Shown here: piece by piece, positions 292 to 47,786 of the stretch
Layout of the letters: each line of letters opens with the position of its first letter
Position numbering within the stretch: position 1 is the first letter of the stretch
DNA from: Hypholoma sublateritium FD-334 SS-4
Lineage: Eukaryota > Basidiomycota > Agaricomycetes > Agaricales > Strophariaceae
NCBI GenBank assembly: GCA_000827495.1
Contig: KN817561.1
Location: forward strand, 1-64,000
Reading direction: 5' to 3'
Length of the DNA: 64,000 nt
Notes under the pieces: generated by a model
Seen by the model: only the letters and a program-made list of their open reading frames with translations
The model's database searches: none
What the model was told of the DNA's origin: nothing
Position numbers and translations under genes: made by a program

Positions 292-2358
292 TTAAACAAA
301 TGATTTTTCCTGTTCAGAGCGCTCTTTTGAAAGAAGTTCATATTTCTGAGACACTAATTAATATGTGGTTGTGGCGGATCGACACAGATAGACTCGTGGG
401 TTTACATACCTCTTTTTCGTCCTTGGGTAAACCATTCCAAAAGTTATTGAAGTCGTCTGCGGTGCCCTTGTTTGTCTTACACCACTCAATAGCACAAAGG
501 TTTCTATGTAGCAGAATGAGTCAAGTATAACATTAATACCAGGCAGAAACATACCGAGCAGTGGCCGATTTTGTAGGGCGCATTCGTCGGGACTTGGTAA
601 CAGGAGCTGGTAATGGCTGAACGGTATTGAGTGCAGAACTAGAAGCTGCAATGATTGAAGCGTCTGGTGTGAGTTGAACTTGCGGAGGGTTGTGAACCCC
701 ATGTAGCGGCGGGACGAAGGAATGGACAGTCGTTCTTGCATTACTTGATGACTGGAATGGATTATTGATCTAGAAAGCAGTATATAGTAAGCCTTGGATT
801 GATGCTATACGAGACGATACTCACATTGAAATACTGTTGAGGTAGTGCCACTGGCTGCAACAAGTTTTGATAACGGAGATTGGCAGTCTGATACTGTATG
901 CGTTAATCTCAGGAATCAAGCTGTTCGCCCATGGAAGCGTACCTTATCGATATTTTCTTGAGCAGCGGGAGTTCCTGGAACGACATTGATACTCGGAATA
1001 GCATGCTATTTTATAAGGAATGAGAATCATATGAAGAACATAAGTAACCAAAATTCTTACCATTTGGGGTGGGACAGCATAGACGGGAAAAGCCATGGCA
1101 GGGTCGGGGGTACTGTTGCCCTTCTTTGTCCTCTTCGAAGGCTGTTCATTGTCAGAGGCCGTATAGTCGATACCACGCTTGACCGAGACATCATCGTTGT
1201 CGCCGTCATCGTTGTCATGAGACTTGTCTTGATCGTCATCATCTTCAAGTTGCCTGTTCTTACCATTTCCTGTCTTATTCTTCTGTTGCTTTTTCTGCCA
1301 TTGATCACGCCAGGTGCGATAGACGTCTAAAGCGATCATTTCAGCCTTCCAATCATTTGCGCAAAGTCGAAGTTCTTCAAATCTTTCTGCCATCTCACGA
1401 TAGTATACTTTCAAGCTAGTGTGATCAGCTTCAGTCCATGAGGCGAATAAACGACCCTCGAGAGCAAACCCAACAAATATAGCGCGCGCATGCCGGCGTA
1501 TGTCACTGGCCAGATGGCCATTTATCGCTTGACCGTCCTTATCCTCGATATATTTCATATTCACGTTAATGCCTTGTGCTGCTCGAGTTCGTCCACGAGC
1601 CCCTGAAGTACCGCCTTCATCTAAATCGGCAACACGATCGGCATTTGCAGTGGTCCAGTCTTGACGAGTCCAGTATTTGACATTGGGGAACGTTTCACGA
1701 GTTTCCGGTCGAGTGGGTGGTGAACTAAGTGACTGCGGAATGCGATTTGCGAGCAACTCGTATGCTTTTCTGTAGTCAATGAGCTAATAAGCAATCATAT
1801 CAGGTATTGAGATCACGTACGCCAGGGTGTCTAACTGAGCAGTAAGAACACGATTTTTCTTGATGAGCTCTGCATTTTCTTGTTTAATTTCATTGAACTG
1901 GGAGTTAAGAGATCTATACTGCTCGACGGTCGGTCCTTTTCGGGTGGCGGAAGGGAAAGATTCAATGGAAGACCAAGCCTATAGCAAACTTTATTGCTTT
2001 GTAAATTATATGAAGCATGAAATATACGTACTGAAGTGCAAGGGCCATATGAAGCGGCACTTTGAGAGGCTTGAAAGATTCCTGTACTGTTAGACGATGA
2101 TTCAGATTGTCCAATGCCAGTGGAAGTAAATAGCTTGAGGTGGTCGCTGTGATAGTTATCGCTAATCCGGGAATTCACGTTCTCTTCAAGTGGGATGCCA
2201 GTAGAATCAGCTGGAAATGCATTTGAGATTGCCTCCTGACCTGGGCCTAGGCTCGGAGAGAGTTGTGTGGAGGATGGGTGCGTCATCCAATCACTCTCCA
2301 TTGAAGTTGGATGGTGATGGGATGTAAGAGGCGGCGCGACGTGTCCTGGACCTGACAT
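292..2358 (-). CDS. Cassette protein with coiled coil and HMG-like tail (copy 1)
   Basis: Function unknown; the family recurs next to FunK1 genes in this window. Start taken at ATG 2358 (MSGPGHVAPPL); an in-frame ATG also lies at 2388. About eight exons: Ser/Pro-rich N-terminus, intron 1979-2031, a coiled-coil stretch (IKQENAELIKKNRVLTAQL), then the conserved core in 944-1756 (GINVNMKYIEDKDG, HARAIFVGFALEG, RFEELRLCANDWKAE), an acidic/basic linker, and a C-terminal segment split over three short exons (NLCAIEWCKTNKGTADDFNN, then LPKDEKE/KYELLSKERSEQE) ending TAA at 292. The last segment resembles the end of an HMG box, suggesting DNA or chromatin binding; that is inference. The core is somewhat over half identical by eye to the paralog at 39689-41649. 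Confidence 0.7.
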
Positions 2359-2802
2359 GATACATTTGATGCACTTGTTCTCACACAAATACGGAAATCA
2401 TCCACAGGGCAGATTAATTTATTCCAGCCCTGCTGTCCGGGACGCGCGAGCGTTGAATGCGCGGAACACTGCGAACTTGAGTGCAGGCGCTGAAATAACT
2501 TTTGTATTCGTGAAGCTGGGAACTTGGCTATTTCTATTTCAAGGATGACCGCCTTCGAATTCGTTTGTGAAAAGGAAAAGGAGAGTCGAGAGTCAAGAAG
2601 GCTTGGCTTGGGCGCAATCAACCCTCTCAATTTCTGTCGGCCGACGGAAAGCATCAAAGAGGTAAATGTGTTGACGAACAAACACCATTTACAGTACACA
2701 AACTACGATACTACAATGTATACACAAACAACATATAAAGTCCACCCGGTGCCAACTTCGAACTATCCTGACAACCCATTGCGCGCTCAAGTAAACCTGA
2801 CC

Positions 2803-5508
2803 TTAGCTTCCAGATGTGGTCACCGAAAATGTCTTGGTTCGCTTGGCTTCCGTAGTATCATCATCCTCGCTGTTCTTGCGCTTCTGGGAACCTTTGGACG
2901 CGTGAAGTGGGGTTGGCGCATACAAGCAAGGCTCCTCGTTCTGCGTAGAATACCTGTCTCGAGCTTTAGTGAAGATTTCTATAAAGGCATCATGAGTTGC
3001 GACACTCTGTTGTTTCTTGACAGAACGATCGAGAGGCCAGATTGCTTTTTGGAGATCTTGAAGCACTGGATGAAAGTCGTCCCAGTAGGGTGGAAGACGC
3101 GACAAGATGTAATCGTCGAGATCATCAATTTGCGAGCATTTTGTGCGGGCAAGGACATGATGGTCACGAGTGTGCCACCACTCATTGACGCATATAGAGA
3201 GTTCGTTGATGATTGGGGTAGGACTGCGAAGGTAGCCAGGTTTCATGACATAAGAGCAGATGTTTAAGATGACGTAGAACAAGGATTCGAGATCGTGCTT
3301 GGGCTGATGAACAAACTTGGAGGGATCTGTCCACCTCAGTGCCTCCAAAGCCATGAACGGTAATGTGCCCTAGTATATGCTTAGATGTAGTATAAGAGAG
3401 TATGAGAAGAAAAACTTACGGAATTTACGCGATACCCAGACTTGGCAACTTCTTCAAGGCAGAACGAATTATCGTTGTCGATAGTGAGGCCATGGGCGCT
3501 GATAGGAACGGGTTTATCAATGTTCTGAAGACCAGCTGGACCTGCATTCAGAGCGCTCGATGCTGGCACTAGGTCAGCGATATCGTCGCCGTTGTTTTCC
3601 TCGTCGACAACGTCAGGGGCCGGTACATTGTTGGAGTCGTTGCTGGGAACAATAATGAAGTTAGAGTCAGGGATGATGTTGCGGTCGTCAATCATTAAAC
3701 CGCGGGGCAGGACGTTGTTGTTGCTGTCGCTAGAGATCACGACGTCGGGATCATTCTCGTCATCCTCGTCATCGTCATCGCAGTGATCGCTCATGATACG
3801 GTTAATGCCAAGATTGTTCATACTGATGTCGCCATGACAAATCTTACAATCCTCAGACATATATTTGAGGTCTGATAAAATTGAGCTGTCAGATCAGATG
3901 TCATAAATTAGAAATATGCCACCTACAGACGACAATGTCAAGGAGTACAGAACACAACTCATGCTTCGACCGGAACGAGGTAATGGGGTCACAAATAGGC
4001 TTCGTGACTATTCTCCTATGCACCCTCGGAAAAGGTTTGTTGGGCAATTCGATGCGACGAAGGGCAGTACCATCACCTAGCTCCTGACCGACGACAAAAA
4101 TCGGGTAAGTATGTTTGAGCTTTGCGTACATCGCCGGGTCCTTCTTGATACTGCGGTTAATTTTGAGGAGATGTATGATCTCAGAGAATGGCGTCGACTC
4201 CAGGGGCCAGGAGTCCTTTAGTATATAGAATCGATCATCACGACAGACGAGCCAGACACGAGTTGCCCGACCGGATATTTGGGGGGTGGCGTGCAGAGGT
4301 CGAACGACCTTGAAGACACGTTTGACAGGCTTTCCGTCTGAAGTTGGGGTTTCGCCAATCACAGTGATATGGGTAACAATGCCAGTCTTCTTGTCGATTG
4401 TCATAGACTCATCGACACCGATGTAATGAGGGCGAGCGAAATGTAGGAGATAGAGAATGGATGCTAGAGTCATTCCACCCGGCCCCCTGCATTCGAACCG
4501 TGTAGAGGATATGACACCGGAACGATCAACGAGGACAAGTGCCCACATGGGATTTTGCGGATCGACCCTGAAGAACCCGAGAGCAAGGACAAAACGTCGG
4601 TAAGGCTGGGTCTCGAACATGAGATAAGACTTCTGGACGATGTTGTGAACCACGGTTTTGAATGTATTGGTTGAACTCTGCGTCACTTCGGCGAATGCTT
4701 TGATGACCGCCCAGCCGGGCCTTGTTTCTTTCGCTTCGAATGCCTTGCGAATGTCCGTATCAACGAGGGATAGATCTGGTTTGCGTGACTGAGTGGCACC
4801 CGTTGGAGGACAATTCGCCGTCCTAATACTCCAGGACCGAGCAGGATCCTTGTGTCCAAAAGCGGTGGCCATTGACTCCGCGACGCCTTTCAACCACTTT
4901 TTGATGGTCGCTTCAGTGAAACTTCGGGGGATATCCTGGAACATCTCTGCATCTTTATTCCAAGCTTTGCACTTGATGCGGAATGTTTTGTCGAAGCCAT
5001 TTGGGAGCGCCTCGCCGCAGATTGTGTGACGAACCCAGTGTTCCCCGGCATTGGGGACCCTCGCATTCACCTCGTAAGCAGTTCGGTCAGCGAAGTCTGG
5101 TCCCAGCTCCTTCCGAAGTAAGTCCTGAGCCCCTGTTTCAACGATGGTGGTGAGAGACGATCGGGCAGCATCTTTGAAAGACGGAGTAAGGACTTTCTTG
5201 ATATACAGGTCATAAGCAGCCGGTCTGGTATATGCGCTGACGTTGACTGGCTTCGGTAAGGCAGGCCTGGGTGCCTTGCGACCGGGGCGAGGTGGCAGCG
5301 GGCCCTGTGGCGGAATAGAGCCTGGTGGCAGCGGGAGAGATGCAGAGTTGCCAGAGCGTAGCATGTTACTAGAGAGCTGAGATTGAGAACAACAGATATG
5401 GACGTATTCGTCTGACTCGAAGGCAGTTGGAATTGGTTTACGATGAGGTGGTTCGAAGAAGTCGTCAGAGTAGCAAGATGGGTCCAATAAAATAGAGGGA
5501 GAAAGCAT
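2803..5508 (-). CDS. FunK1-type fungal protein kinase (copy 1)
   Basis: Member of the FunK1 (fungal-type) protein kinase family expanded in mushrooms. Three exons (about 5508-3910, 3867-3422, 3371-2803), about 860 residues. A Pro-rich N-terminus is followed by a conserved region with RKPDLSLVDTD and AFAEVTQSS, resembling the D..ExT core of PD-(D/E)xK nuclease folds. The kinase begins at SGRATRVWLV with the lysine in FYILKDSW; the catalytic loop is CHGDISMNN, the metal-site aspartate is in GLTIDND, and an APE-like segment is TLPFMALEAL. Oddity: about 100 Asp/Asn/Ser-rich residues lie between catalytic loop and metal-site aspartate, longer than in the copy at 41894-44547. The kinase residues look intact. 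Substrate unknown. It starts 96 bp after the transposase stop codon. Confidence 0.85.
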
Positions 5509-5604
5509 CGTTCTTAAGTAATGGTATGAGAAATCGATAAGGAGGCGGCAATGGGCAGGGTACCATACTAGCTACTCCAAGTCACAAAGTGTTCTTATGT
5601 AATC

Positions 5605-8600
5605 TCAATTACTACCCAATGCATTGCCTTCTTCATTATCCCTGCCTTCTTCTGAGTCATTGTCGTAAACTCCTCCGAATCTGGCGACATCCAATCCCGG
5701 CTTTTCGACAACAAATCTCCAATCCTCCTCGACATTCAGGCCATGAAAATTATGTGGTACCATTCCGACCACTGAAATGATCGCCCTATAGTCGATAACA
5801 ATGGGCGCCGAATCTTCAGTATATTTGCATACTAATACTGTACCTGCGGATTCTTTGAATAAAATAGGATCAGGATCAGAATACGTCGATATCATCGCCA
5901 ACGTAAAGATATCTTGTTGTATTTTGCACCTAAAGTAATAATGAACTTCACCGAATCGTTCTTGACGTTCCGAGTCACCGACATTGTTCACAAACTGAGT
6001 CATTCATTAATTTAGGTTAGCGTGAAAAGATGCACGAGATGAGAAAACGACCTTCACATTCCGGGAAATTCTGACTTTCTCGAGAGGTTTCGAGCCTTCC
6101 TTCCATTTTGATCGAGCAATCTGTCCATTCGGTAGGCGTAGACGGGCCCAACGAGCGATGTCAGGACACCAGTCAGGATACTGACTGGGAGTGATTGCTG
6201 TGATATTGACACGGCGTTGATTGAAATACATAGCAAGTGCCCGAGCTTCAGATTTCTGCATGGAACGGAGGCGATGATCCTGCGCGCGAAGCAGGGCATA
6301 GCCATCGCCAAGATCGATGGCTCCTCGAGGCAGTTGCACACGATTTGGCGCCGAATATTTGGCGCCGGCTAACGATTCCGGAAGCATAGCTATAAGCGCG
6401 TTCACCTGGCAGCGTAATAGACCTCGCTGGGAAAGATTCGCATACGGATTTGACGGCTGCCGGATTTCTTGTCCCAGGTTTCCAATGGTCCGTTCCATGG
6501 TCCACTGCGAGGAGCAAATGGGAGGACCGATGCGAAAGACTTCCGGCGCCAAGTGGAGAAGGGCGTGGATACTCTGACGAACAAAATGTAGCCTTTCAAT
6601 TTGTCGTTGATAATATATGAGTTCAAATTCATGGGCAAATGAAACCAAAAGCGTGTGAGCGACGAGAATATCTTCTCTTCGGATTTTACGTTGAAGTATT
6701 ATTCGCATTGCCTTGACGAGTCCACAGAAATGGAGATAATAAGGATTGGGCAAAATCCCATGAAGAAGAGCTGGGGCGAGTCCGTAAAGATACAATAGAA
6801 ATTCCCAAGCCTTGTAGCCGCTGTTGATCTTCTCGGCGATGTTTCTGGGGGGCCTGTCAAACTGTCCCGGTAAATATGGTGTTGCGGCAGCAACATGCTG
6901 CCCATGAAGAGTCCATACGTCACCGACAAGGACGGCCCACGGCCATTCTGAAGGCGGATCGTCCTTATCATGGTCCAAAGTACCTCGCCATAGGGACAGT
7001 AGTAAATCACAGAGGTTGAATGAACTTAAGTGCATGATGTCCGAGCCAAAACAACCGGGAATCCCGAGTACACGAACTGGCTGAATCCCCAAAAAAATTG
7101 ATGGCTTCGAAATGCCAGTCTCCAAGCGACGCCTCTTGTACTGTGTGTCATTTGGCGAATTGAGTACATGACGAAGATTTTGAAAGTAAAGCTGAGACGA
7201 AGTGCATGGAAGAGAGTCGTGGGGAATGTCGTTGTGGTCGCAGCCTGGCATAGAAAAATTTGTGGGCTTTAGCAGAGCGGGATAATAGTGAGGCCCATTT
7301 GGTTTATGCCGTCCGGGTACCGTGCAATATAGGCGGCATCCGTATTTTCCGTGATGGCCCACCAAACCGTTCAGATAAGCCATACCAGGGCCATCTGCGG
7401 TATTGAGTGCTAGAAATAATCTTGAAAGAAATAGACGGTCCGATGAAGCATCCCAGAGCAAGAGTCCTTCGTTCTGAACCGCGGCAAGATGATATAGACC
7501 TGGGAAAAGGAAGGAGTCCATGTTTTTGGGCTTATTCGGCCCAGGTATGAAGCCGCCTGGCAGTACGTGCTTCTTCTTGTATCGTTCTTCGGGTGATAGA
7601 TCAAACAGCACCCAGATATAAATCCAACAATCTGACGACTTGTGCGCATACAGCTGGGCCCCGTCCAGTGAAAACATCAGTACCATGTCGCTGTCCTGTA
7701 TATTCCCATTTCGAACGTTCTCTAGATAGTCAGAGCCATGGAGGAAGTCATCATAGCTCGGAAGGCTACCTGAGTTTTCCTGAAGTTCGGCAATAATTTC
7801 TTGGGTTTTCCGTCGACGATAACGAAGTCGGTCCGCACTCTTGGGGTCGCGCCAGAGAGCCTGCAGGACGGGAGCGATGGGAATGGTGATGAATTCTTGA
7901 TACGGTTTTTTTGTTTCGGGGCAAAATTTAGTTACTCCACATCGGGGACATATGTCGAGTTGTGAGAAAGGTCCTGTAAAAGCAACACAGCTATTTTTGC
8001 ACATTGGGTGAGACACTGACCCAACACCTGTAATCTCCTCGATTCTACGTTTGATTTGGTCATGAGACGGGATGCTGTCTGCAGGATATCGCCTCTTGAT
8101 TGCCTCCCTTGTACTGTGGTACGCATCAGCTGAAGAATTGATGTTGGCCAAGAATATGTCCAGCCCAAGGCGAAGATCAGGGTCCTCGCTGAAATCAAAT
8201 ACTTTGGATGGTGGATTCCGGATCCTCTGTATAGCCGCTGGGCTTAGATTACTGTATTCTCCACCTAGCGTGGCGTCACGGAGCGCGTTAATGAAATCGA
8301 TGGAGGTCCGAAAGTCCGATAGCTGAGCCACTTCGAAAATATTGTCGAGATCAGCGGCTTCACTTTCGTAGTGTTCGTACTGAGGCAAAGGATGCAGGTG
8401 AATTGTAGCTGGGGTCTCCTCGCTGTTGACTGAGTGGTCCATAGTATTTTCCAGTTGAGTTGACAGAGGTTCACTATGTAGCGTGTCGTCTGTCAAAGGC
8501 TCATCAATGTGCTACAAATCATCACAGTCAGTGACATCGGTAGAAAGGCGTCATTCTGGTACATACAGGACGAGAATTCAAAGAACTATTTTCGAGAGGA

Positions 8601-8830
8601 GGTGCATTTATTTCGTTTACTTGTGTTCGTGTTTCTCTTTGCGCGTCAAGTTCTCGAAATTGAGCATGCTTTAAGTATGTTACACGTGTGAGTTGCTTCA
8701 AACGCCCTTTGCATCGGTGAGTACATGAGCAAGCAAATGTTTCTTTTGCCTTCGGAGAGGATAGAGATCTAGAGCTCGGTCGGCGAGATGATGTCGCTTT
8801 GCGCTTGGGTGTCTTTCCGCTGGAGGCCAT
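5605..8830 (-). CDS. Tnp2-like (CACTA/EnSpm) transposase, copy 1
   Basis: DDE-type transposase of the fungal Tnp2 group. Three exons, roughly 1,030 residues: exon 1 from ATG 8830 (MASSGKTPKRK) with a Cys/His knuckle (CSCTHRCKG..TYLKHAQFRELD); a long exon 2; exon 3 (6003-5605) joined by an intron starting at GTCGTTTTC after SRNVK. Exon 2 carries HPMCKNSCVAFTGPF and CPRCG (zinc knuckle), MVLMFSLDGAQLYAHKSSD (first acidic residue), LPGGFIPGPNKPKN, TADGPGMAYLNGLVGHHGKY, and FGSDIMHL, equivalent to the DPMHN motif of other Tnp2 proteins. About two-thirds identical by eye to 44695-47786. The family is known to cut at terminal repeats and give 3-bp target duplications. The frame is intact after splicing. 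Confidence 0.85.
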
Positions 8831-9351
8831 AAATGAGACTATGGTGGTGGCAAAAGAGCATCTAAGGTGCGCTGACATTCTGAATCTCGCTCACGTAGTC
8901 TAATACATTCAATGCATTCAAAACAAATGCAGATAAATTGCGTACCTGCGCTTGCACTTGGCTTAAACACGGGTGTGCCAATACACACACTTATCCGGTG
9001 GCTAGCGCCATCCCAAGCAGGGCTTTTACTGTCCATGCCATGTTTTGCCAGATGCTAATTACGGTAATTTTGTCCTTATTATAGATTTTTTAACTGGTCG
9101 GCCCAGCATGGGCTAACCCCTGACATAATTTGCTGTGCATCTCCTTGGTTCCGGTTATATACGGGCTATTTTGACCGGGCTTGAATGTAACCGGGCCGCC
9201 GGGGCCAGGCACCGCGCGAGCTTTTTACTCTTCTCACTCTCATCATCCACACTCCAAAAACCAAGACGATATTTCGGTTGGTTTCTTTGCGTAATTTCCC
9301 GACACCGCAATTCAGAATGCATCCTAGGTCCGCCTTGGTGGCTGAATTACC
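8831..9351. other. Divergent upstream region between cassette 1 and MYND gene
   Basis: About 520 bp between two divergent start codons. The strip near 9150 (TTATATACGG) could be a TATA-like element for the MYND gene but is about 190 bp from its ATG. A possible right terminus of the cassette should be in this interval; no inverted repeat matching the left side was seen. Confidence 0.4.
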
Positions 9352-10849
9352 ATGTCGAACATCGAGGAGCTCGTGAAGGCGTTCAATGCGCTTCCTCGCG
9401 GCCCATTGGTTCCTTCTGGAGTATTCCCAAACGAATGGCACTTCGACGTCCGGTATATACCACCACTGGGGAAGGAGCTTCCTAGCCATGTTCTTTACAT
9501 ATGCCATCCCAAGCTGGCCTTCACGTATGTTGGGCGGCTTCCTTTGGACGGCCCTGCAGCGGACAGCCTATCGTTTTTCCCCGAGTCGGTGGACGACATT
9601 GCCCCGGAGGTTGCGAAAGGATTGCTCTTCGCATTCATCCACAATCTGGGTGAGCGCCGAGTCTGGAGCCTCCGCGGCGCCAAAGCATCGGCACCATGGA
9701 AATTGACGTCGGAGGACAGGGCGCTGGCGCCGGCAGTCGCGCGCGAGCTGAAGAAAATCGGCGTCACTGCGCCCGAGCTACACGAGATCCTGCTGACCCC
9801 AAAAGGAACATACGACGAGGCACACTTCGCCTTCGAGGACATGTTCAACGACGTCAAGCGGACCTGCGGGCTGCGCGGCGCGGACTACGACTGCATCCTC
9901 ACGCCGTGGTCGGTATCGTTCCACGACCTCAGACCCCCCGCACGGCGCCCGTTTTCGTTGGAAACCGCCGACGGGCGCCTCAAGCTGCGCCTCGAGTACA
10001 TCACGCGGGTAGAGCGCGCCCGCCCCCGCACGCGGACGAACCTGGACCTCCACGCGTTCTTAGCCCACAACGCACAGGGCTTGCTCGACGCGCTCATCGT
10101 GCAACACACGGATCGCCCGGCGCACGTAGCGAAGGTGGTAGCGGAGGCTGGTGAAGCAGAGGCTGCGCTGGACTACGGCACGCGCCTTCTCGTTGGGCTC
10201 GATACCGCGCTGGACATACGCCTCGCACGCCACTACCTCGCCCGTGCCGCGATGGCACCCGACGCACCCGACATTATACGGGCCATCGCGCACGGGCAGA
10301 TGGTCTCGACGTACACGGTGACCGGCGACGGGAACCTCCGCGCGCGCTACTCCCTCGCTGCGTCGTTCCACTCCAACGCCGCCGCGGTGCTCACCCGGAA
10401 GATCGACCCCAAGCTAGTGATCTGCGAGAACGTGGTGGACTTTCTCAAGATGATATCAGACCTGAGAGGCCCGCACGTCGAACAGATGAATTTTTTCCTC
10501 AAGGACGCGAGAAAGGCGCGCGATGTGCGTGGGACGGCTGCGGCGGCACAAAGGAGAGGAGCCGTGGCAGGCCCTTCTCGGCGGCGTCTCACCTGTCCAG
10601 TTCCCCACCGTTGTGCGGCGTCCGGGTGCAAGAACGAAGCGAGCCCCGGGACGCGCCTGGCGAGATGTGAGTAATTCTTGCTACCGGCTGCTCACGGATT
10701 ACTTATTTATCGCTACTCTAGGCTCAGGACCGTGCGATGCGGATATGAAGCCGGGATATTGCAGCACGCAGTGCCAGAAGGCAGATTGGAAGAATCACAA
10801 GACGTTCTGCCGTCCTGGCGCAGGTTGTTCGGTCTTCGCTGAAGACTAA
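9352..10849 (+). CDS. MYND-type zinc-finger protein
   Basis: About 480 residues in two exons; one intron (GTGAGT at about 10668 to CTCTAG before 10723) splits the MYND finger. N-terminal region (FNALPRG..PSGVFPNEWHF) is shared with the convergent paralog at 11300-12996. The middle (AALDYGTRLLVGLD, LARHYLARAAMAPD) resembles Sel1/TPR-like helical repeats. The C-terminal finger runs CAASGC...RLARC / SGPCDADMKPGYC / CQKADWKNHKTFC, with all Cys/His of the MYND pattern visible across the splice. MYND fingers bind proline-rich peptides in other proteins; the target here is unknown. Strong GC bias in the second half. Start chosen because MSNIEELV aligns with MSDNLVES of the paralog. Confidence 0.85.
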
Positions 10850-10957
10850 AATTGGTATTGGACTAATGTGGGCATAATGTCCCAGCGGGGCTACATGTGC
10901 GCCTAAATTTACCTTTCGGTTCACACCATATCTATAATTGCTCTGTGTAGACATATA

Positions 10958-11169
10958 CTATCACTGGTCGGGTGTTTGAACATTTTTTTGATCTCCCGCA
11001 TATCTTCATGCAAACATAACATATGCCGGTCATTTTTATATGTTCTAATGGACTGGCTTCTCTTCTATATGGCTATATTTTTTAATTTTTCAGATCTATT
11101 GAACATGTTGGTCTGGAGATATGGGGCAATTTTCAAACACTACGTTTTCAAACACCCGACGCGTGATAG
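10958..11169. mobile_element. 212-bp MITE-like element between the MYND paralogs
   Basis: Terminal inverted repeats of 23 bp with two mismatches: left 10958-10980 begins CTATCAC then GTCGGGTGTTTGAA after two bases; right 11147-11169 is its reverse complement. Both ends are flanked by TA (10956-10957 and 11170-11171), as expected of a TA target duplication (Tc1/mariner-like). The interior is AT-rich with no coding frame. A subterminal TTTTCAAACAC is repeated near the right end. Confidence 0.7.
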
Positions 11170-11299
11170 TATGTATGGAAGCCGATAAACTATTCTGTTA
11201 TTCAAGTTATTGAAAATACGTAAACTGATTTCGCCATGCAATGACGTTGGAATATGCGGAGGAGTAGATCTTGCACATGTAAGACGCTGATTCTGGGTG

Positions 11300-12996: not shown

Positions 12997-13057
12997 GTTG
13001 GGCGATGATGAGCGATGGGGACAAGAAGTACGATGATTTGAATATTCGGAGTCGGTA

Positions 13058-17600: not shown

Positions 17601-17709
17601 CGGGTTCAAGAAACAGGTATATTTCGAGATGGTATAAGTTCAGATGATGGTCGATAGAATAAAGCAAACTTGAATTGAACTTCAAGGGGGGAGCACCAAT
17701 GACCTCGGA

Positions 17710-33622: not shown

Positions 33623-35075
33623 GATGTTGGATGAGCTGGCAGGAATGCGGAATGCTCGAGAGGGGGGAAGATGTTATTTCAGGGCAGGATAGTTTGTTAT
33701 AAGCTCGGGAAGGGTCGGCGGGCGATCAATTTGGATGGTTGTTCTGATTTCTCCATTTTCCAGTTAACGTGGACCTGGAGCTGACCCTGCTACCTCCTGA
33801 GTCCTCGGAAGAGTCTGGCACTACGGCGTCTTTCAGCGTTGACTAAGTCTGATATGCCACGCATCTTAAGAGTAGCGGTCAAGACATGTGCTACGAAGGA
33901 ACACACCTAAATATTGTTACCGGCGGGACGGGGTGTTATACTTGCTCTGGGGTCTCAGAACGACCCGATTTACCAAAACCTTCGGGAACTGACGTCGTGC
34001 CGAATGAAAGCCGAACAACTTTTGCACGGAGTACAAAGCGTACAACGAGTACGTAGGCAGTTCGATTGGCCAAGCTTGGCCGCGTCGCGGTAGATCGTAA
34101 TATACGCGTTCTAGAGAGCGGTGATGTGATATGACAGAAAAGGTTTTGTTCTGGGCTCAAAAAGTAGAGAGCGGCATGTGCTGGCCTGTAGTTCGAGGCA
34201 TTCATAAAAGTGCCTCCTTGAAGTCTAAGGTCGTGATTGGCCGACATCCATAAACCGTGACCTGGTCTCCGACTCGGAGCCAAGTATGGTTGCCAATTTC
34301 AGAGCTCCGCCCTGGCATAGTTAACCTGAGCGCACCCCCCTCAAAAATCGCGATGCCCATTAATTCCTTCTCAACGCCTCGGTATAATGAAAAGAAATTC
34401 CTACGGGGAGTGTAGGGATTTTGCAAATTTAAGTGGCATTGATGATAAGTCCCCGATTCGGCAATCTGCCGCCTTGCATTGGCGGACCTCAAAGTTCAAA
34501 CAAGCAAATGTCAGCAAACGTCTCGGGGTTAAGACATTCACGGCGCGGCTGCAGGCGAGTGGTGTATGTGTGAGGGGTAGGTCGGTGTATATATCAAAGA
34601 ATATGATGATGCACTTGCTGCCATTCGGGAACGAAGAATAATTGCTTATCAGGCCTAGGTTCTGCCATACATGATTGCATCACTCCAAAGTATTGAAACC
34701 TGAGCGTGCTTTCGAAGCTCTTGTTGGATCTCGCGAGCCTCGAGGTACCCACTGCGACGTGCGTCTGGTACGGATTCAAGGATATAACTTTTGTTCGCTT
34801 GGAGATCGGTGTTCAGGTGTCCTTAACATGTGGGGAGATGTTGGGTAGAAAAGGGGGTACGAGGAGGACCCAAAGAGGTAGAGGACGGCAGAGGTAGAGA
34901 TAGCCGACGTCCATGCGATTGTATAGAGAACATACAATGGCCAGACGCCTGTTGTCACCCTTGAGACAGGCAGGGCAATCGATGTCTGACTGTCAAAGCC
35001 TTCTCCGTATCGAGTGGAGCAGCGCGTAGCGTATTCATGCGTCGTCGTCCAAGGAGCAATCCTGAGCGAAGTTTG
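33623..35075. other. 1.45-kb region without a supported gene
   Basis: Lies between the chitin deacetylase start and the REV1 stop. Open frames (for example 33936-34283 and 34202-34492 on minus) have no family motif, no plausible exon partners and ordinary composition, so I do not call them. The first 300 bp are presumably the deacetylase promoter. Confidence 0.5.
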
Positions 35076-38000: not shown

Positions 38001-38886
38001 CCCTGGTCGCGGGGTCGGTTGTGTATAGCGGGGCAGGCGCGGGCCGTGGAGGTGCCTTGGGGAATGTGGGCGTAGATAGGACGGCGGAGGGGGATGCAGC
38101 AGAGGATCCTGCCGTGCGGAGGGTCTGCTGGTTGCTCTTGGCCCCTTGTGTGGTCTCCATGCGATCCTCCCGAGTGAAGATGTAATTGCGCCATGGAAGG
38201 AGGTATCCCTGCTCCGCGCTCTCGACAAGCCATTCCGGCCGTACAACTTTCATATGTTTGAATTCGCGGATCCTCGCTGGCGTCAGAGAGCAGGTCAGGA
38301 TGTGGGTTCTGGAGATGATTTGGTCATGTCTTGCATTCAGGCTGGAAAGTTGGCACTCACACTTCGGTCTTGCGGTCGAGATAGGGCTGGAAGACGCCCC
38401 CATGCTGCACAATGAGGTGGCGCAATTCTTGGACAGACGGACGCGTCCAACCGTTGATCTGAGGCGACCATAAGTCAAATATAACTCTGCCATTCCTTCG
38501 TGTGGGCGCACATATATAGACAAATCCTTGAAAATCTGCGATCTCTCGCTGCCTTTGGCTATTTGGTCGTTCTGAATCTGCAACTTTGCGCGCTTTCTGT
38601 GCATATATTCCCCGAACCCGCCGAAGCTTGCGGGCCCATAGATGTCGTCTTCCACGTTTGGCTCATCAGGTTCTGGCGTGAGACTTCGCTTGCGCTTCAG
38701 ACAAGGTTGCGCTGCTGGTGGTGGTTCCAGCTCTTCTTCCGAAAGAGCGCCTCCAAGCTCATTGTTAGCCTCTAAGGGTTGGTCACCAGGAAGAACGGCG
38801 TCTGCGAGCGCGTCAAGGAAAAGAGGGTCGTCGTCATCGTAGTAGTCGGAGGAATTCGTTTGCGATAACGCTTGAACCATTGACAT
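35076..38886 (-). CDS. REV1: REV1 translesion DNA polymerase (dCMP transferase)
   Basis: Y-family polymerase scaffold that inserts dCMP opposite abasic sites and recruits other translesion polymerases; nuclear. Multi-exon, about 1,130 residues. Acidic N-terminus (MSMVQALSQTNSSDYYDDDD); BRCT split over exons (INGWTRPSVQELRHLIVQHG, THILTCSLTPARIREFKHMK, VVRPEWLVES); N-digit-like region (SRLHHLATWKTEL); catalytic palm VIMHCDFDCFFVSAGL, ASSSYEARKFGI and VSVDEALIDV with the metal-binding Asp/Glu; little finger and PAD (FLGHGICDLFNKQGPL). Two ubiquitin-binding motifs: DMSVFAALPEDVRQELESEY and LDPEVFFALPIRLQREQL. The C-terminal REV1 interaction domain (VQRVVEQWLAKYQHWAP, MKWWLVLLRRIFP) ends at TAA 35076. 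Long plus-strand frames over 35.0-35.8 kb are GC shadows of this exon. Confidence 0.9.
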
Positions 38887-39688
38887 TGCAAATTTTCATG
38901 ACCTGAGCTAGGCTGTGGTGCAAACAGAGTTCAGAGATTACGGTGGCTCATCGTGGTATGGACAAGAACGGTTGCCAAATGCCACCGCGGATGACTGACT
39001 GCATGAGATTTGATTACGTCTCCGACATCAACAAATGACATTTATTGATTGTTTATTGATGGCTTTCAAGTTCCAACTTGAAGATGACTCAAACCAGGCC
39101 AAGGGAGGATACAAGAGGGCCGCCGACAGCGACTTATTCAACTTTTACATCACCTGCAGCTTGATCAAGACCGTTCAAGTTGTTCGCCGCTGCAGTATGC
39201 CAAATTGCCGAGCTAGGCCCCGGTGTTTCCCCGATGCATATCGTTTCACGTGTATGTATTCATCCCCGGTCAAAAACGCCTCTAAGTGGGTCAAGGCACA
39301 GTGATTTCTGGCCATTTTTTTAGTACTAAACTGTGCTAGAATTCGGTTGAATTATCCTCGCATTGATGCTAAAATGGAATATTGGCCATGAATTGCTGGA
39401 AATGGCCCAGGCCCAACCGAAGTGCAAATAGAGTGTATCTATTTGTGGAAATTTCATAAGATATTACATAATATATATAAAATATCTAGAAATCGAATGA
39501 CATTTGAGCAGAGTAAGTACGTGGATGGACATCAATATGAGCTTTCGTTGCTCCATAGCAGTCATTATCAATAGATATCCATGCATACAACTTGGACAGA
39601 AAGCACTAAGAGAGAAACTCAGCCAAGAAACTAAAAACAAATAAGTAATGACGACAACAAAATTCATTGCTTACAATAAATGGATCCG
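38887..39688. other. Spacer between REV1 and cassette copy 2
   Basis: About 800 bp. The first 150 bp hold the REV1 promoter. The rest is AT-rich with no supported gene. The left terminus of the cassette should be here; no inverted repeat matching the 47.8-48.3 kb side was found by eye. Confidence 0.45.
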
Positions 39689-41649
39689 CTAATCAGCAGT
39701 TTTCGCTGACTCCTTTGCCTGGGCCGAGAGCTTTTCATACTTCTAAAGTTTCAGGAAAGATCAGATAAGGTCATCCTGTTAATCTAGAATGAACTAACCT
39801 CCTTCGCTTCAGCGGAAAGACCATCATAATATGTACTAAATTCTTCGGCGGTGCCTTTCGGATATAAAATAGCCCATTCGAGCGCACAGAGGTTTCTTAT
39901 ATAAAGGAAAAGATATCAGAAATACAATATGAAGTGGGCTATGTTTACTACTTACCTGGGTGTGGTACTTGTTTTGCTTGGACGCATTTTTGTTGTTCCT
40001 GGGCGCAACCGTTTCTGCGGTGGAGGTGGAATCTGAGGATGGTTATTCGCAGCCATGGTACTACCTTCTGGTATCGGCTGGGTGCTGTTTGGTTCAAGCA
40101 CCTGCTGAAATTGCGGCCCAGTCATGCCAGTGGGCAGCGGGATGCCAACGGCAAAGGAATTGACATTGTTCGCAAGAGGGTTATTAATCTGTAAGTTGTC
40201 ATCAGTTCCATATCATACGGAGTAGTTCTCAAAAATAGCTTACTGAGAAGTCACGAATCGTGTTCGGTTGGAGGAGAGATGGGTCCCAGGACTGGTGAAG
40301 TGTGGTACGTTGCATATTGAATGCTAACTGATGAGGAATCAGAAGATTGATACGCAGAAAAAGAACAGGAACCTACATCAGCTGTGGCAGCCTGCCTGAT
40401 AGGCGTATTCGGTACTATGTTGACCATTGGCACTGTGAGCTATTCAACAACATGAGACATTACCACAGCAATGAGTTGATACTTATCCGTACTACCTGAG
40501 AATCGAGACCCTCGTCTTGAGCTTCATGTGAAGGCGCCGACAGTGTTGATGTGACTGCAATAGCTTTCGATCGCTTCGGGTCTGGTTCTTCACCAGTGGA
40601 CTGTTGGCGTCCTCTTTTTGCTCCATCGCGCGCTTTCTGCTTCTTGAGCCAAGTAACCTTCCATCCAGGAAAAGTATCAGTAGCAATCTGCTCGGACTTC
40701 CAATCCAAGTCACAGTACTGGAGTTCTTCGAAGCGGGAAACCATCTCAGCGTAGAAAGTCTTTCGGCTGACAGCATCAGCATCTCCCCAGGACATAAACT
40801 GCTTTCCTTGCAAGGCAAAGCCAACGAAAAGGGCACGCGCATGCATGCGAATCTCTCGTGCACGATGTCCATCAATGACGTTACCATGCTCATCTTGTAT
40901 ATATTTCATTGCGACATTAATCCCAGCACGAGAGCGGCCCTGACCACGTTGAGCTCCTGGGCCGGGAGATATGGATCGTAAGTCTTCCACCGGGTCCTCA
41001 GCTATGGCATCGTCTTCCTCGTTTTCTCCCTTTCCGGTGATTTTGGTTACACGATCTCCCGAGGAAGATACCCATTGGCATTTGAACCAGTAGTCGATGA
41101 GTGGATAATCGTCTGGATTGAGCTTTTTGAGCGCCACTTCGGGAGAAAATGAAGGAATTCGTTCGAGCAGAAGATTATATGCAGACCTCAGGAGGATTTA
41201 GTAAAATAAGAGTATTATTGAATAAAAATACGTACTGGAGCGTCTCAAACTTAGCCTTCCAGACGAAAATTTGCTTCGTTAGCTCGACGTTTTCTTGCTG
41301 AAGGTTACGTTGGACACCTTCGATGCCCACTCTTCGCCGGGCCCAGTCATCTGCCGAGGACCAACTCTATAGATGTATGTTAATTTGGTTTATATATATT
41401 GAAAGCATTGCCTACCGCCGCCCTTGATCCGGTACTTTCCATGCTTGTGTAGGGTCTTGAGTAGAGGGAGCTTGAGCTATTGAAGCTCTCGATGCTTGAT
41501 GAAGCCGGAGGAAATTGGATATATTGCGCGTTCTGAGCTGGGAGGATACCAAACGAAGGCACGGCTTGAAAACTGGGAGCAGGGCTTGGAGCGCGCATGC
41601 ACGTTTCAAAGTCTGCTGTCTCGTTCATGGCTGTCGAAGTATGGATCAA
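39689..41649 (-). CDS. Cassette protein with coiled coil and HMG-like tail (copy 2)
   Basis: Homolog of 292-2358, roughly 480 residues. Start at 41649 or at MNETADFETC (41628). After exon 1, an intron (GTAGGC..CTATAG) leads to SWSSADDWARRR and a coil (NLQQENVELTKQIFVWKAKF). The core at 40460-41137 has the same signature: GINVAMKYIQDEHG, HARALFVGFALQG, RFEELQYCDLDWKSE. The tail, over three short exons, reads NLCALEWAILYPKGTAEEF, STYYDGLSAEAKE / KYEKLSAQAKESAKTAD, stop TAG at 39689. The end resembles helix 3 of an HMG box (LS.EAKEKYE.L). Retention of the coil, the core and the tail between diverged copies argues for selected function; what it does is unknown. Confidence 0.7.
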
Positions 41650-41893
41650 GAGACAAGTTCAAATTCAAATTTCACACAGGTTTGTGCCACGTTATTGAAG
41701 GATGACATAATCGGGCTCTCATTCATACGCGACAGAAGTACAAGATATACAGACAGCATGGCATAGAGGGATACAACAAGAAGAGAATGCCCCATAAGTA
41801 CACGACCCGGTCAACAGGATATGATAATACGGCAGCGATGGCGCCAGAGCGCTGGTACAAAGTGTGATCTTTAGTCGACTGTCAATCGCAAAT

Positions 41894-44547
41894 TCAATCA
41901 AATGTTGAAGGCGTTAGGTTGGCGCTGGGCGTATCCAGCCAGAGGCCGGATTCGGTAAAGCTCTCCAAGTAATGACGCTTGTTGTTGCGGGGAATTGTGA
42001 TACTTCCAGTGTCTGCATCGATACGCTGACACTTTCCACCATGCTCGGATTCACATTCTTCGGTCCTCTGACGTTTTCCGGCTGGAATAACAGCATACAG
42101 TGCAAGTGGATCAGTCTCGTTTTGATTGTAGTAGTTGAGAGCCTCTGTGAGTATGGTGCGATAGGACTGGTGCGTTGCGCTGTTGGAATGTTCGATGAAG
42201 GGCTTGTTTTTCCACGTAGCCTCGATCAAGCGGTGTATATACGGAGCAAAATCTTGCCAATATATGGGAAGGGCCAGTCCAATGAAAGTATTGAATGCTT
42301 CGAGGGTGGCTGTTTTCCAGATGGCGAGATCTACGAGGTCTACTTCCACGAACCAGCGGTTGAGCTTGAGCGTCTTGTCCCCATCGCCGTTGTGTTTACG
42401 AAGTTCGCCACCGGGACCCTCCGTGTAATGGCATACAGTTAGGATGGTGTTGAGGAGGGCCTCTAAGTCATGTCTGCCATGGGGTAGGTATGGTTTGGTG
42501 GGAGATGACATCAAGGCCTCAATCGCCATAAATGGTAAAGTTCCCTATAAAGAATGTCAGCGATGAGATGCCAATGATATTGATATCTAAAATTCTCACT
42601 GAGGTCAGGTGCGAAGGATTGCCTTTGAGTCGCATAAAATCGCAATCGATGAGCATTCCACAAGCTTCAATAGGTTCATCGGTGCCTTTGTAATCGATCT
42701 GCGAGGGAATAGACGAAGAATCACTCTGATTCGCTATGGAAGGTGGGGCGATTAGTTTGATATCGGGTTTGTAGGCGCCGTTGGAGGCAGCGACGCGAAG
42801 TTGAGAAGGGGATTCATTTTCTCTACACTCCAAAACTCGATTGATCATGATATTGTTGATTGAAACATCTCCATGGATGACCTTGGCCTTATTATCAAGG
42901 AAATCCAACACTGATAGAGACTATGAGTCCGGCGTCTTTATCGTCAACAAGAAAATTAAAATACGTACTATTAACGAGATCAAGACATACAGAAACAAAT
43001 TCCTTCTTGGAACGAAAAGAGGTAATGGGATCCCCAATTGCCCCCGTGACTATGCGACGCTGAGAACGAGTTCCAGGTGAATCGATTGGAAACCCATGGA
43101 CGGTATTGGTGGAATGAACAACTTCTTGACCAATATAGTACTGAGGAAAAGAGTGCTGGAAGAGATAGCCGTCTTCATCTTCTTTGAGATACTTCTCGAC
43201 ATGTTTGATGAGATCGATTTCCGAAACTTGGTCCTGTTGATTGATCCAGCTGTCCTTGAGAACGTAGAACAAACCCAGTTTGTCCCTTACAATCCATACT
43301 CTAGTCCCGCGACCGAACAAAACAGGAGAGTTGTGAATTAGTTTGACAACGGCGAAGTTGCGTGTGGTAACGACGTTTGACTGGCGTTCACGACCCGTGA
43401 CGCTGATGCTGCGCACTTCATGTGTCTTCGGATCCACTTCCATTGACGGGTCCCAGCCGATAACCGCCGTATTGCAGAAGCAGAAAGCAAAGATTATTTG
43501 AAGGAATTCCATGGCAGGATAGCCGCTGATTGGGGAGGCTTCCGTGTATGTGAACCCGGTACGATTCACCACAGCAAAGGTGAAGTGGAGAATGTCAGCC
43601 TTACCTCTGAAGATCCCCAACGCACAAACAAACGTTCTCTGCGGCTGTGCGTCAAATATACATGCCGCCTTCTGGGCAATTTGCGTGAGGATGTGTTTGA
43701 GGCCATCTCGTTTGAGGCTGGTAACCTCGACAAATGCATAGACATGACGCCAATGAATCCGTTCTTCCTTCGTCTGCGATTCGTCATGTTGAACCGCTCG
43801 GTTGATGACAACGAGATCTGGCTTCAGAAGGGTATAGCCACCTGAAGGCCCCTTCGTAGAGGTACTGGAGTCGAAGTTGCGATCGGCGACCTTTATTGGC
43901 GACGAAGACATATTTATATTGTGCGCGATAGCGAGGTTGGTGGAAAAGTTATTAAGCCATGTGCGGATGTGCGCGTCCTTAAAGCTCTGCGGTGGGCGAG
44001 AAAGTCCACCGTTGGCTGCATCTCCAACCCAGATCTTGCCCTCCGCATTCAGAACGGCATCAGGGTCGAACTTTAGACCTGATGCAAGGAATTTTGCATC
44101 CGAGAAGACCACCCGGATATGTTCTCTGGCTATGGCGCCCTTGATCACCTTTGATCGAAAAAGCAAGCTATTGAGGTATGCAGTGTTGACATCGCTCCTT
44201 CGCAGCTTTGCATCCGCGACAGGAATAGGTATACCCGGAGGTGGCATGGACGAGGCGGTAGTGGTTGAGGCTGGAAACGCCAAAGGGAGCTCGCTCTTGA
44301 TGTAGTTCTCGAACCTCTTGGGGTTCCCCAATGCTGAAAAATTGTGGCAGGAAGGGAGTGCAGGAAAAAACGACTCGACTTTGCGATCTTCGGGCATGAT
44401 ACTCTTTGTCAAAAGAATATTGGGCTCTGATACTAATTGAGACATGTTACACTCTGAGGAGAAGGGAGATGATTCGTTGGATAGGTCGGAGAAGACGGTT
44501 GAGTCACAGAAGACCCCAGGGTCGTAGATGTTGCGCAGGTAAGCCAT
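41894..44547 (-). CDS. FunK1-type fungal protein kinase (copy 2)
   Basis: About 845 residues, three exons (44547 to about 42969; about 42912 to 42599; about 42542 to 41894). The N-terminal region carries LLKPDLVVINRA and YAFVEVTSLKRDG, matching the possible PD-(D/E)xK-like core of copy 1. The kinase domain starts at FGRGTRVWIVRDKLGLFY with VLKDSW (Lys), catalytic loop IHGDVSINNIM, metal site GMLIDCDF, then the segment TLPFMAIEALM after the last intron. The insert between the catalytic loop and the metal site is about half the length seen in copy 1. The C-terminus is not conserved between copies. All expected kinase residues except the Arg of HRD (Gly here, as in copy 1) are visible; HGD is common in this family. 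Confidence 0.85.
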
Positions 44548-44694
44548 CGGGATAAACCGATTGTTTAGCTCTTTGCAGGAGGATACCTAGAGAAAGTCGA
44601 AACCATACCTATTATATAATCACACAACCTATACGGAAAAGGAAAAATGAACCGGCAGCAATAAAAATTATTATACAAATGTAAGTATCTCAGG

Positions 44695-47600
44695 CTATGT
44701 ATCATCGGCCACAAATTCCTGACGACTACCTAGGTTTGCGATATCCAGGCCTGGTCGCTCCACCAAGAAAAAATGAAGCTCTGAATCTTTAGAATGTGGA
44801 GGATTGTGAGGAACCATAGCTACCACAGATTTGAGACAAAAAACATCAACCACCACCAAAGAGCTGTCGCCAAAATATTGGCACGAGGTGAAGGTTCCGT
44901 GAGATGAGAGGAGAAGTGTTGGGTCGGGTTTGGAATACTCCAAAATGACCGCTAGAACCATTTCTCGTCCTTCGATGCGACAGCGGAAGTAAAAATATAC
45001 TTCGCCAAAACAGGTTTTTCCATCGTAGCTGTACTGCCAATTACAATGAATAAAAACAGATACGGGTATTTGAAGAGCTGTGAGCTGGATTGAATTTGGC
45101 TTACCTTTACATTTCTTGACATGCGAACCTTGTTCAATGGTTTGCGCGACTCTTTCCACTGCGACCTCGCCACTTGACCATTCAGGAGACGGAGACGTGC
45201 CCATCGAGCAATCTTTGGACAAAAGTGTGGTCCTAGAACGTGAGTTCCATTCAATTTCTGAATATATGTTGCTAGAGCTTTGGCTTCACATAGTCTCATA
45301 GCTCGATCGTATCGATCCCGAGCGCGAAGAAGAGCATACCCTTCACCCAAGTCAACGGCGCCATGAGGAAGTGTTGGGGGGACATGTTGGAGATCAGGGA
45401 TCATGGCCACGAGAGCATTGACCTGACAACGAAGAAGCCCTCGCTGAGAAAGATTCGCGTACGGATTAGATGGTTGTCGGATTTCTTCCCCTAGATTTCC
45501 TATCGTTCGTTCCATTGTCCATTGTGAGGAACATATAGGCGGACCAAGTCTTGTTGTCTCTGGGGCTAGGTGCAGTAGGGCATGGATACTTTGGCGACAG
45601 AAATGAAGACGATCGACCCGTCGTTGATAATAGAGGATTTCGAAATCGTGGGCAAACGACTGTAAAAGATGGCCGGCCTGTACTAAATCGGTGGTCTTGA
45701 TATGGTGTTGCTGGATGATCCTCATAGCTAGTACCAGTTTACAAAAATGCGAATAATATGGATGTGGGAGGACATCATACAAGAGTGCGGGAGCTAAGCC
45801 ATAGAGGTACAGGAGCCATTCCCAGGCCTTGTATCCCGAATTAATCTTGGCCGCGATGTTGCGAGGAGGCCTATCAAAAGAACCTGGGAGATAAGGAGTG
45901 GCGTTCGCAACGGCCTTCCCATGCTGTTCCCATATCTCACCCCGGAGGACGGCCCACGGCCAATCTGCTATTGAATCGGTTCTTTCATGATCGAGCTGGC
46001 CACGCCATAACGAGACAAGCAAATCAGCGAGATTAAATGACGCGAGGTGCATCACGTCGGAGCCAAAGCAGCCCGGAATACCTAGAATGCGGCTACTTGC
46101 GATGCCTAAGAAAATGGTTGGCTTTGTGATCCCGGTTTCAAGTCTTCGTTTTCTGTATTGAGTTTCATTTGGAGAAGAGATGAGAAATCCAAGATTTTGC
46201 AGATACCAATTGGACGAGATGGAAGTGGAGTCAAAATGAGAGATATCAGCGTGATCGCAGCCGCGCATAAGGTAGTTATCAGGTTTCAGGAGAGCTGGGT
46301 AATAGTGAGATCCGTTGGGTTTGTGACGGCCAGGTACCGTGCAGTAAAGTCGACAGCCATATTTCCCATGATGGCCTACCAAACCGTTGAGGTACGCCAT
46401 ACCGGGCCCATCTGCAGTGTTCAATCCTACGAATGGCTTAGAGATGAAAGAGCGATCTTCAGAGGCATCCCATACACGAAGACCTTCCTGTTGAAGTGCA
46501 CAAAGATGATGTAGCCCTGGAAATAGATATGAGTCAATGTTCTTTGGCTTATTCGGACCAGGAATAAACCCGCCAGGGAGGACATGCGTCTTTTTGTACC
46601 GTTCATCCGGGGAGAGATCTAGGATAACCCAAATGTATATCCAGCAATCCGATGCCTTGTGGGCATAGAGCTGGGCACCATCAATCGAAAGCATTAGAAC
46701 CATGTCGTCTTCGCCAATTTCGCCTTTCTTTACATTTTCAAGATAGTCGCTTCCGTAGAAGAAATCGTTGTAAGTCGAGAGCATTCCGTTGTTTGCCACT
46801 AACTCGTCAATGATGACGCGCGTAATTGTTCGACGGTACTTGAATCTTCGAGCACTTGAAGGCTCTCGCCATAGGGCCTGCAGGATGGGGCCGATAAGGA
46901 TGGTGTGGAACTCTTGATGTGGCTTCTTCGTGAGGGGGCACAACTTAGGCGCATCGCATTTTGGGCACGTGTCACAATCGGAAAACGGTCCGGTAAACGC
47001 CAGGCAGCTGTTTTTGCACATAGGGTGCACAACTGAAGTAACACCAGTAATATCCGTAATTACTCGCTTCATCTGGTCGTAGGAGGGTATCTGATCTCCT
47101 GGGTGCCGTCGTAGAATTGCTTCACGCATCGCAACGTAAGTATTGGTTGATGATTTCATGCTGACGAGGAAAGTTTCGAGGCCGAGACGTAAATCAGGAT
47201 GATCTTCAATGTTGAAGATCTGAGTGGGAGGGTTTCTCAGTCGATGCAGCGCTTTAGAATCCATTTTATTATATTTATCTTCTAGAGATGCAGATTGGAG
47301 TGCTTCAATAAACTGAACGGTTATTTGAAGGTCTTCAAGTTTCGTGGCTTCGAATATGGTTTTGAGCTCCTCGTCGGTGGAGCTAGTATTTCCCATGTTT
47401 TCCGTCGGCGATTCTTGTTCCAAGCAACCAGGATCTGCTGCTTCAGGTACATCAGAGGTATCTTCGTCGCCGCCGGGGGGCTCGGAAGAATTTTCCGCAT
47501 TTGGAATCGGTAAGATGCCGGCGGATTCTGCAAGTGGAAGTTGCTCTCGAGCTTCTATAGGTGGGTTAGGCGCTGGCTGTACTTGCTAGCGCTCAAATTA

Positions 47601-47786
47601 GAGAACCGGTTGAGGAGTGAATACAGGTATACAAAAACTTACTGAGTTTAGTATGGGTCCAGGCGCAGCGCTTTCTCCCTGGATTTCGCTCTCCAGTTGC
47701 CTGAAGGTAGCGTGTAGCTGGAATATGCGCCTAGATACTTTACGACGGACGCCGCCACACTCCTGAGCGCAGTAACAGGTATACAT
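44695..47786 (-). CDS. Tnp2-like (CACTA/EnSpm) transposase, copy 2
   Basis: About 985 residues, three exons. Exon 1 from ATG 47786 has the Cys knuckle CYCAQECGGVRRKV. Exon 2 is joined by an intron (GTAAGT..GCTAG, about 47588-47644) and contains VHPMCKNSCLAFTGPF, CPKCDAPKLCP, MVLMLSIDGAQLYAHKASD, LPGGFIPGPNKPKNID, TADGPGMAYLNGLVGHHGKY and FGSDVMHLASFNLADLL. Exon 3 (YSYDGKTCFGEVYFYFRC to the stop at 44695) follows an intron starting GTAAGCC. Every motif and both intron positions match 5605-8830. Exon 1 is shorter at the N-terminus than in copy 1. No stop codon or frameshift seen, so it could be active. Confidence 0.85.

Follow-up and report, generated by a model that had tools for sequence, protein, structure and literature searches.

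A FunK1 kinase gene within a probable three-gene Tnp2-type DNA transposon of the mushroom Hypholoma sublateritium

The first 64,000 nucleotides of contig KN817561.1 of Hypholoma sublateritium FD-334 SS-4 (assembly GCA_000827495.1, positions 1-64,000 of the forward strand), designated here the window, twice contain a trio of adjacent genes encoding a Tnp2-like transposase, a FunK1 kinase, and a third protein. A protein kinase gene in this company raises the question of whether the three genes form one mobile unit and, if they do, what the kinase contributes to it. We consider it highly probable that these genes make up a single autonomous DNA transposon of the cut-and-paste type, about 9 kb long, and that all three move jointly.

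Gene models, element ends, and recent movement

Both trios lie on the minus strand in the order transposase, kinase, third gene, and exon counts agree gene by gene between the two copies, designated A and B, at 3, 3, and 8 (Table 1). An earlier interpretation made from the sequence alone (the sequence-only reading) had described the same trio twice, with equal order, strand, intron layout, and tight spacing, and the gene models of both copies agree with it. Its spacings between transposase and kinase, 96 bp in copy A and 147 bp in copy B, were correct, as was its figure of about 440 bp between kinase and third gene in copy A (444 bp), but the corresponding gap in copy B measures 265 bp rather than about 240 bp. 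Its estimate by eye of 55-70% protein similarity suits the transposases, at 58% identity, but is far too high for the kinases (28.5%) and the third proteins (33%).

Pfam models PF02992 (Tnp2) and PF17667 (FunK1) score above cut-off in both transposases and both kinases, respectively. The features by which FunK1 was recognized, namely a kinase fold, a catalytic Lys, an HGD loop, and a DxD- or DFG-like Asp, are all found in the cassette kinase: copy B has VLKDSW, VIHGDVSINN, and MLIDCDF, and copy A has detectable lysine and catalytic-loop motifs, with DND replacing DxD. The third gene matched no Pfam family above cut-off in scans of one exon frame per copy and of the full-length public model for copy B. 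Our copy B model of this gene can be regarded as checked because it matches that public model, HYPSUDRAFT_203235, at 100% identity and coverage, the public version being one residue longer, at an exon junction.

Table 1. Coordinates of the two element copies in the window, and of short extra frames in kinase-less relatives (locus coordinates).
Feature	Position	Strand	Details
Element copy A	1..9179	-	5' terminus scan and C64 comparison; 3' end taken as beyond contig start
Copy A 5' terminus	9168..9179	-	CCCGGTCAAAAT; match to twin on contig C64 stops exactly at 9179
Copy A Tnp2-like transposase	5605..8830	-	exons 8830-8567, 8511-6052, 5994-5605; 1,037 aa; PF02992 E 1e-8 (main frame)
Copy A FunK1 kinase	2803..5508	-	exons 5508-3927, 3871-3420, 3369-2803; 866 aa; PF17667 E 2e-28 (first exon frame)
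Copy A third protein	292..2358	-	8 exons; 562 aa; homologous to copy B (33%, E 1.5e-69)
Element copy B, complete	39265..48141	-	8,877 bp; terminus scan and 7-bp duplication
Copy B 5' target site duplication, 7 bp	48142..48148	.	ATTCATC on + strand; GATGAAT in element sense
Copy B 5' terminus	48130..48141	-	CCCAGTGAAAGT; terminus scan
Copy B Tnp2-like transposase	44695..47786	-	exons 47786-47643, 47585-45105, 45033-44695; 987 aa; PF02992 E 3e-9 (main frame)
Copy B FunK1 kinase	41894..44547	-	exons 44547-42969, 42910-42600, 42544-41894; 846 aa; PF17667 E 1e-28 (first exon frame)
Copy B third protein	39689..41628	-	8 exons; 521 aa; public model HYPSUDRAFT_203235
Copy B 3' terminus	39265..39276	-	...TTTTTGACCGGG (element sense)
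Copy B 3' target site duplication, 7 bp	39258..39264	.	ATTCATC on + strand; perfect copy
Short extra frame, L029	3658-4059	-	by eye
Short extra frame, L030	3312-3593	-	by eye
Short extra frame, L031	5394-5750	-	by eye
Short extra frame, L032	6344-6772	-	by eye

Termini were placed where non-coding homology among copies stops. Both ends were scanned in eight kinase-lineage copies of the home genome (46.1 Mb in 281 contigs; labels such as C31 and C64 denote its contigs or the copies on them), giving element lengths of 8.9-10.1 kb. The termini are short and inverted, reading 5'-CCCNGTS, mostly CCCRGTG, at one end and SACYGGG at the 3' end of kinase-bearing copies. Seven of the eight copies are flanked by 7-bp target site duplications (GATGAAT, TGTGATG, GGTCAAG, TATGAGC, ATTGAGT, GACTAGC, and AATGACG). 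Two relatives that lack the kinase, C92 and C197, begin with CCCAGTG, end with GCTGGG and CACTGGG, and also have 7-bp duplications, TCTCAAC and CCTCAAC (two of two with both ends read). Over both groups, ends of the form CCC and GGG occur in 10 of 10 copies with both ends read, and the 7-bp duplication in 9 of 10. The pattern NNTNANN is present in eight of the nine duplications and in six of eight flanks that were either one-sided or without a match, against a window background of 5.3%; this count excludes the one-sided flanks of C97 and C93, both of which fit by eye. The termini and target duplications that the sequence-only reading had proposed to look for therefore exist, and they enclose all three genes. 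A perfect match to the 5' terminus pattern also occurs at 106297-106323 (+) of C127, a contig without a transposase match, and may mark a non-autonomous or eroded element.

Three pairs of copies bear on the age of movement. Copy A (C44) and its twin on C64 show no mismatch over 8501-9179, the 679 bases compared within the element, and diverge exactly from 9180; deeper search matches for the two share places and scores. C54 and C101 agree at all 4,298 bases compared inward from the terminus, and their upstream flanks are unrelated, with 735 mismatches in 1,000 bases; C111 and C189 likewise agree at all 4,152 bases compared, with 765 mismatches in 1,000 bases of unrelated upstream flank. Because all three pairs are identical up to the terminus and then differ, the cassette, judged by these alignments, is recently mobile.

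Linkage of the three genes and selection on the kinase

Searches of the home genome scored the best candidates only (107 of 192 for FunK1, 77 of 114 for the third protein, and 52 of 78 for the transposase) and returned 75 PF02992 matches (70 above cut-off), 121 PF17667 pieces, 92 third-protein pieces, and 52 transposases. Forty-seven transposase matches, each 60% or more identical to copy B, were taken as the close family. Nineteen of these end within 1.9 kb of the downstream contig end and are hence uninformative about neighbors, which leaves 28 with room, the twins C44A and C64 both among them. The element seems to break the assembly because so many close transposases (19/47) sit at contig ends, and copy counts would then be low estimates. 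The third gene lies downstream in 28 of the 28 and a FunK1 match in 27. Neither gene was found within 10 kb of any of the 26 other PF02992 loci, so the co-occurrence exceeds chance, and the possibility raised in the sequence-only reading, that most homologous transposases might lie without the partners, failed in the home genome. Among 83 Plavaka loci (one piece per place, picked from 144 pieces), either gene lies within 10 kb of three, of which two adjoin a cassette and the third adjoins a non-cassette FunK1 on the opposite strand. In the contig-cut copies that were read (C54, C101, C111, C189, and C1), the start of the kinase is visible before the contig ends.

Two side observations concern spacing and a stray fragment. 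In C167 and C34 the transposase and kinase matches lie 4,519 and 3,463 bp apart, some 2-3 kb more than the roughly 1,500 bp of other cassettes, perhaps through nested insertions. The window also holds, at 54551-55213 (-), an additional Tnp2 (PF02992) fragment that scores 26.7 bits, under the family cut-off, and lies outside the family matches; no FunK1 or third-gene match was found within 10 kb of it.

Gene trees were built from 14 kinases, 13 third genes (none was read in C1), and 15 transposases. The same main groups appear in all three, namely C21/C265/C46, copy A with C1, and the copy B group, and no supported conflict was seen, several branches being unresolved; the comparison of gene trees thus favors the sequence-only reading. 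Between groups, the kinase tree has branches several times as long as those of the transposase tree. Where dS is about 1 or below, which holds for two pairs, the transposase has dN/dS of 0.105 and 0.104, the kinase 0.207 and 0.268, and the third gene, with one pair, 0.158. Kinase dN/dS is below 1 in all eight computable pairs, the highest value being 0.37. Lysine, catalytic-loop, and DxD-type motifs were detected in the kinases of copy B, C68, C205, C27, and C265, and the C46 kinase keeps the motifs with KDAW replacing KDSW. The dN/dS of a few pairs supports the view that purifying selection maintains the kinase as the element lineages diverge.

In En/Spm elements, a second protein, TnpA, accompanies the transposase. 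The cassette resembles En/Spm in having a second protein beside its transposase. The third protein, which has relatives in four distant elements without a kinase, would be a core accessory factor, probably a DNA-binding partner in a TnpA-like role. The Tnp2-like protein would be a DDE transposase making cuts at the CCC/GGG ends, staggered by 7 bp, a chemistry that we infer from the observed anatomy. The FunK1 kinase, placed between transposase and third gene in one lineage and presumably retained there by selection, would most likely phosphorylate either the transposition complex or a host factor of repair, cell cycle, or silencing, with about even weight on each, so that transposition would be licensed or silencing evaded. 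Taken as a set, these roles have in our judgment about the same chance of being right as of being wrong. That the kinase serves the element is the reading favored by purifying selection.

A possible alternative, which we rate somewhat below even, is that the kinase counters host defence on behalf of the element, or otherwise benefits the host, and takes no part in transposition itself, its fast change reflecting an arms race. The long between-group branches of the kinase tree suit such a history, and there is a precedent in transposon-encoded TET/JBP genes, which PMC12730594 describes as thought to aid escape from silencing. No target is known, however, and the kinase ratios, all eight below 1 and none above 0.37, speak against it, although as gene-wide values they are not site-specific.

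Known elements and kinase-less relatives

Could this be an ordinary, catalogued CACTA/EnSpm or Plavaka family, for instance one in Repbase, whose extra kinase went unnoticed? The PF02992 match speaks for this, and so does the number of related transposases: of 7,993 public candidates that were scored, 1,084 reach E<=1e-20. With CACTA/EnSpm (CMC) elements the cassette shares the PF02992 Tnp2 domain and cut-and-paste anatomy. In an alignment of 14 transposases, aspartates are invariant in DGAQL and AD(G/A) stretches and a glutamate is invariant in an MER.IG stretch; the same alignment has C-x3-C where C(2)C would be expected from the CACTA/EnSpm DDE triad motifs C(2)C and H(3-4)H. By the description in PMC12730594, CACTA/EnSpm elements have CA..TG termini (CACTA/CACTG) and 2-5-bp duplications, unlike the CCC..GGG termini, 7-bp duplications, and FunK1 gene found here.

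Plavaka elements (PlavakaA/B) are described in the same source as a Tnp2-related clade that may carry an accessory enzyme gene, TET/JBP, with termini TGT..ACA or CATCA..TGATG and 2-3-bp duplications (PMC12730594). The cassette is likewise a Tnp2-related basidiomycete element with an accessory enzyme gene, but its termini and duplication length match neither Plavaka form, and a Pfam scan at E<=1 found no PF18759 (Plavaka) match in either transposase. Nor did that scan find a KDZ (Kyakuja/Dileera/Zisupton) profile; it gave PF02992 and one sub-threshold unrelated family. Against these features, we think a catalogued family unlikely. By the published descriptions, there is a case for regarding this Tnp2-domain element as a lineage of its own, set apart from CACTA/EnSpm and Plavaka.

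A kinase gene beside a fungal transposase has a described parallel in the rust-fungus IS3EU elements, which carry an alpha-kinase gene and make 6-bp duplications (PMC12730594). The cassette is similar in being a fungal DNA transposon with a kinase gene next to the transposase, and differs from IS3EU, as described there, in transposase superfamily, in duplication length, in kinase type, and in that the IS3EU kinase has the opposite orientation. The word FunK1 is absent from the main text of that paper. Our literature searches found no link between FunK1 and transposons in titles or abstracts, full texts naming both FunK1 and transposable elements lying outside their scope.

Relatives without the kinase bear on the order in which the genes were assembled. 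Downstream of five distant transposases, at 41-50% identity, no PF17667 match was found (5/5), and the fixed transposase-kinase link claimed in the sequence-only reading consequently holds in the close lineage, where 27 of 28 copies with room have it, but not in the wider one. Four of these distant elements were read, the fifth (C51) falling outside that set; all four contain a relative of the third protein by profile search of their own small set of frames (E 6e-17, 2e-16, 5e-9, and 1e-5), and in none did the cassette-kinase profile match at E<=1. Because a third-like gene is found in kinase-less distant elements, the transposase and third protein look like the older core, with FunK1 as an extra gene apparently kept by selection. 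The kinase may have been gained in the lineage of copies A and B or lost in the distant relatives, and we offer both histories. By eye, the kinase-less relatives also have in common a further short open frame, located between the transposase and third genes and showing the pattern F..FP.F..W/F..L (Table 1); in L032 it lies on the strand opposite to the transposase. In the predicted structure of the third protein, a long helix is accompanied by two parts of three helices each, of which the C-terminal one is predicted with confidence.

The same relatives, which have similar termini and 7-bp duplications and evidently moved without a kinase, lend something to the view that the kinase rides along as a passenger, derived from a single capture of a host gene and of no use to the element, as does its faster evolution (28.5% identity between copies A and B, against 58% for the transposase). 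Against a useless gene stand the FunK1 match retained by 27 of the 28 copies, dN/dS values of 0.21 and 0.27 for the two pairs least affected by saturation, and catalytic motifs kept across the three groups, and we regard the passenger explanation as quite improbable.

Several observations weigh against a transposon with a working kinase and a TnpA-like partner. C31 is the sole exception to the FunK1 linkage, being a remnant that keeps the 3' part of the kinase and lacks the 5' part, and it has no matching target duplication although both of its ends were scanned. Reading across the full trio covered nine of the 28 copies with room downstream. Long branches carry copy A and one outgroup in the tree of the third gene. 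The dN/dS pairs other than those two are saturated, or nearly so, at synonymous sites, and motif scans of the C21 kinase found its lysine and DxD motifs and no catalytic loop; kinase function is argued from conservation. Foldseek gave no confident match to the third protein. Seven copies have between 1 and 6 inverted 8-mers each that are common to both ends, where shuffling gives a mean of about 2, and the excess in C21 and C46 is mostly the terminus itself; since most copies lie near the shuffled mean, binding repeats for a TnpA-like factor were not found among these shared end 8-mers.

FunK1 loci inside and outside the cassette

FunK1 is said, in papers that cite the original work, to have been first described in Coprinopsis. 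The cassette kinases share PF17667 (Pkinase_fungal) and the HGD catalytic loop with this family and differ in their location within a transposon. Passages in PMC3591445, PMC6001611, and PMC3203195 describe the family as expanded, unevenly distributed, without an assigned role, and possibly tied to development or multicellularity. They also report FunK1 in ascomycetes, which contradicts the claim of the sequence-only reading that it is mushroom-specific.

With pieces merged within 1.5 kb, a rough procedure that splits some genes, counts the C27 kinase twice among the cassette loci, and keeps contig-end twins, 39 of 81 scored FunK1 loci in the home genome lie in cassettes, a locus being so classed when, on its own strand and within 6 kb, it has a family transposase on the upstream side or a third gene on the downstream side; the other 42 lie outside them. 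The suggestion that the cassette is a mechanism of FunK1 expansion accordingly stands for the 39 and not for the rest. Selfish DNA accounts for part of the FunK1 abundance here, because the kinase rides in a recently moved element of about 9 kb. That 42 loci lie outside cassettes might also suggest a recurrent host gene neighborhood spread by segmental duplication, with no transposon at all, an explanation that we dismiss almost entirely given the termini with 7-bp duplications, the twin matches that stop exactly at the terminus, and the transposase domain. Four sampled non-cassette FunK1 proteins fall outside the cassette kinases in the tree, with weak support (59/88), and against the cassette-kinase profile three of the four score 25-34 bits and one has no match at E<=10. 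Several non-cassette FunK1 loci share contigs (C73, C66, and C82).

The wider proposal is that a separate Tnp2-type lineage, with CCCRGTG-like termini, a 7-bp NNTNANN duplication, and an obligatory third protein, recruited FunK1 as a working part, and that a large share of the mushroom FunK1 expansion is a transposon gene set; for this we see evenly balanced prospects. If it is true, much of the expansion in mushroom-forming fungi would consist of transposon genes rather than inventions in host signaling. Since roughly half of the FunK1 loci scored in a single mushroom genome sit in a transposon cassette, the expansion becomes testable, and caution would be due in equating kinome size with host signaling complexity. 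The element would also add a lineage of transposons whose target duplications, at 7 bp, are unusual.

In other species, linkage was judged by shared contig only, not by gene positions, contigs being matched by species name and length. Kinase and third protein share a contig of 91,889 bp in Pholiota conissans, contigs of 8,058 bp in one metagenome source, and, a weak case given the contig's length, one of 2,087,494 bp in Crassisporium funariophilum. A 6,802-bp contig of P. conissans carries transposase and third protein together. Hosts among the best 120 of the 1,084 related transposases include Phlegmacium, Plicaturopsis, Jaapia, and Athelia.

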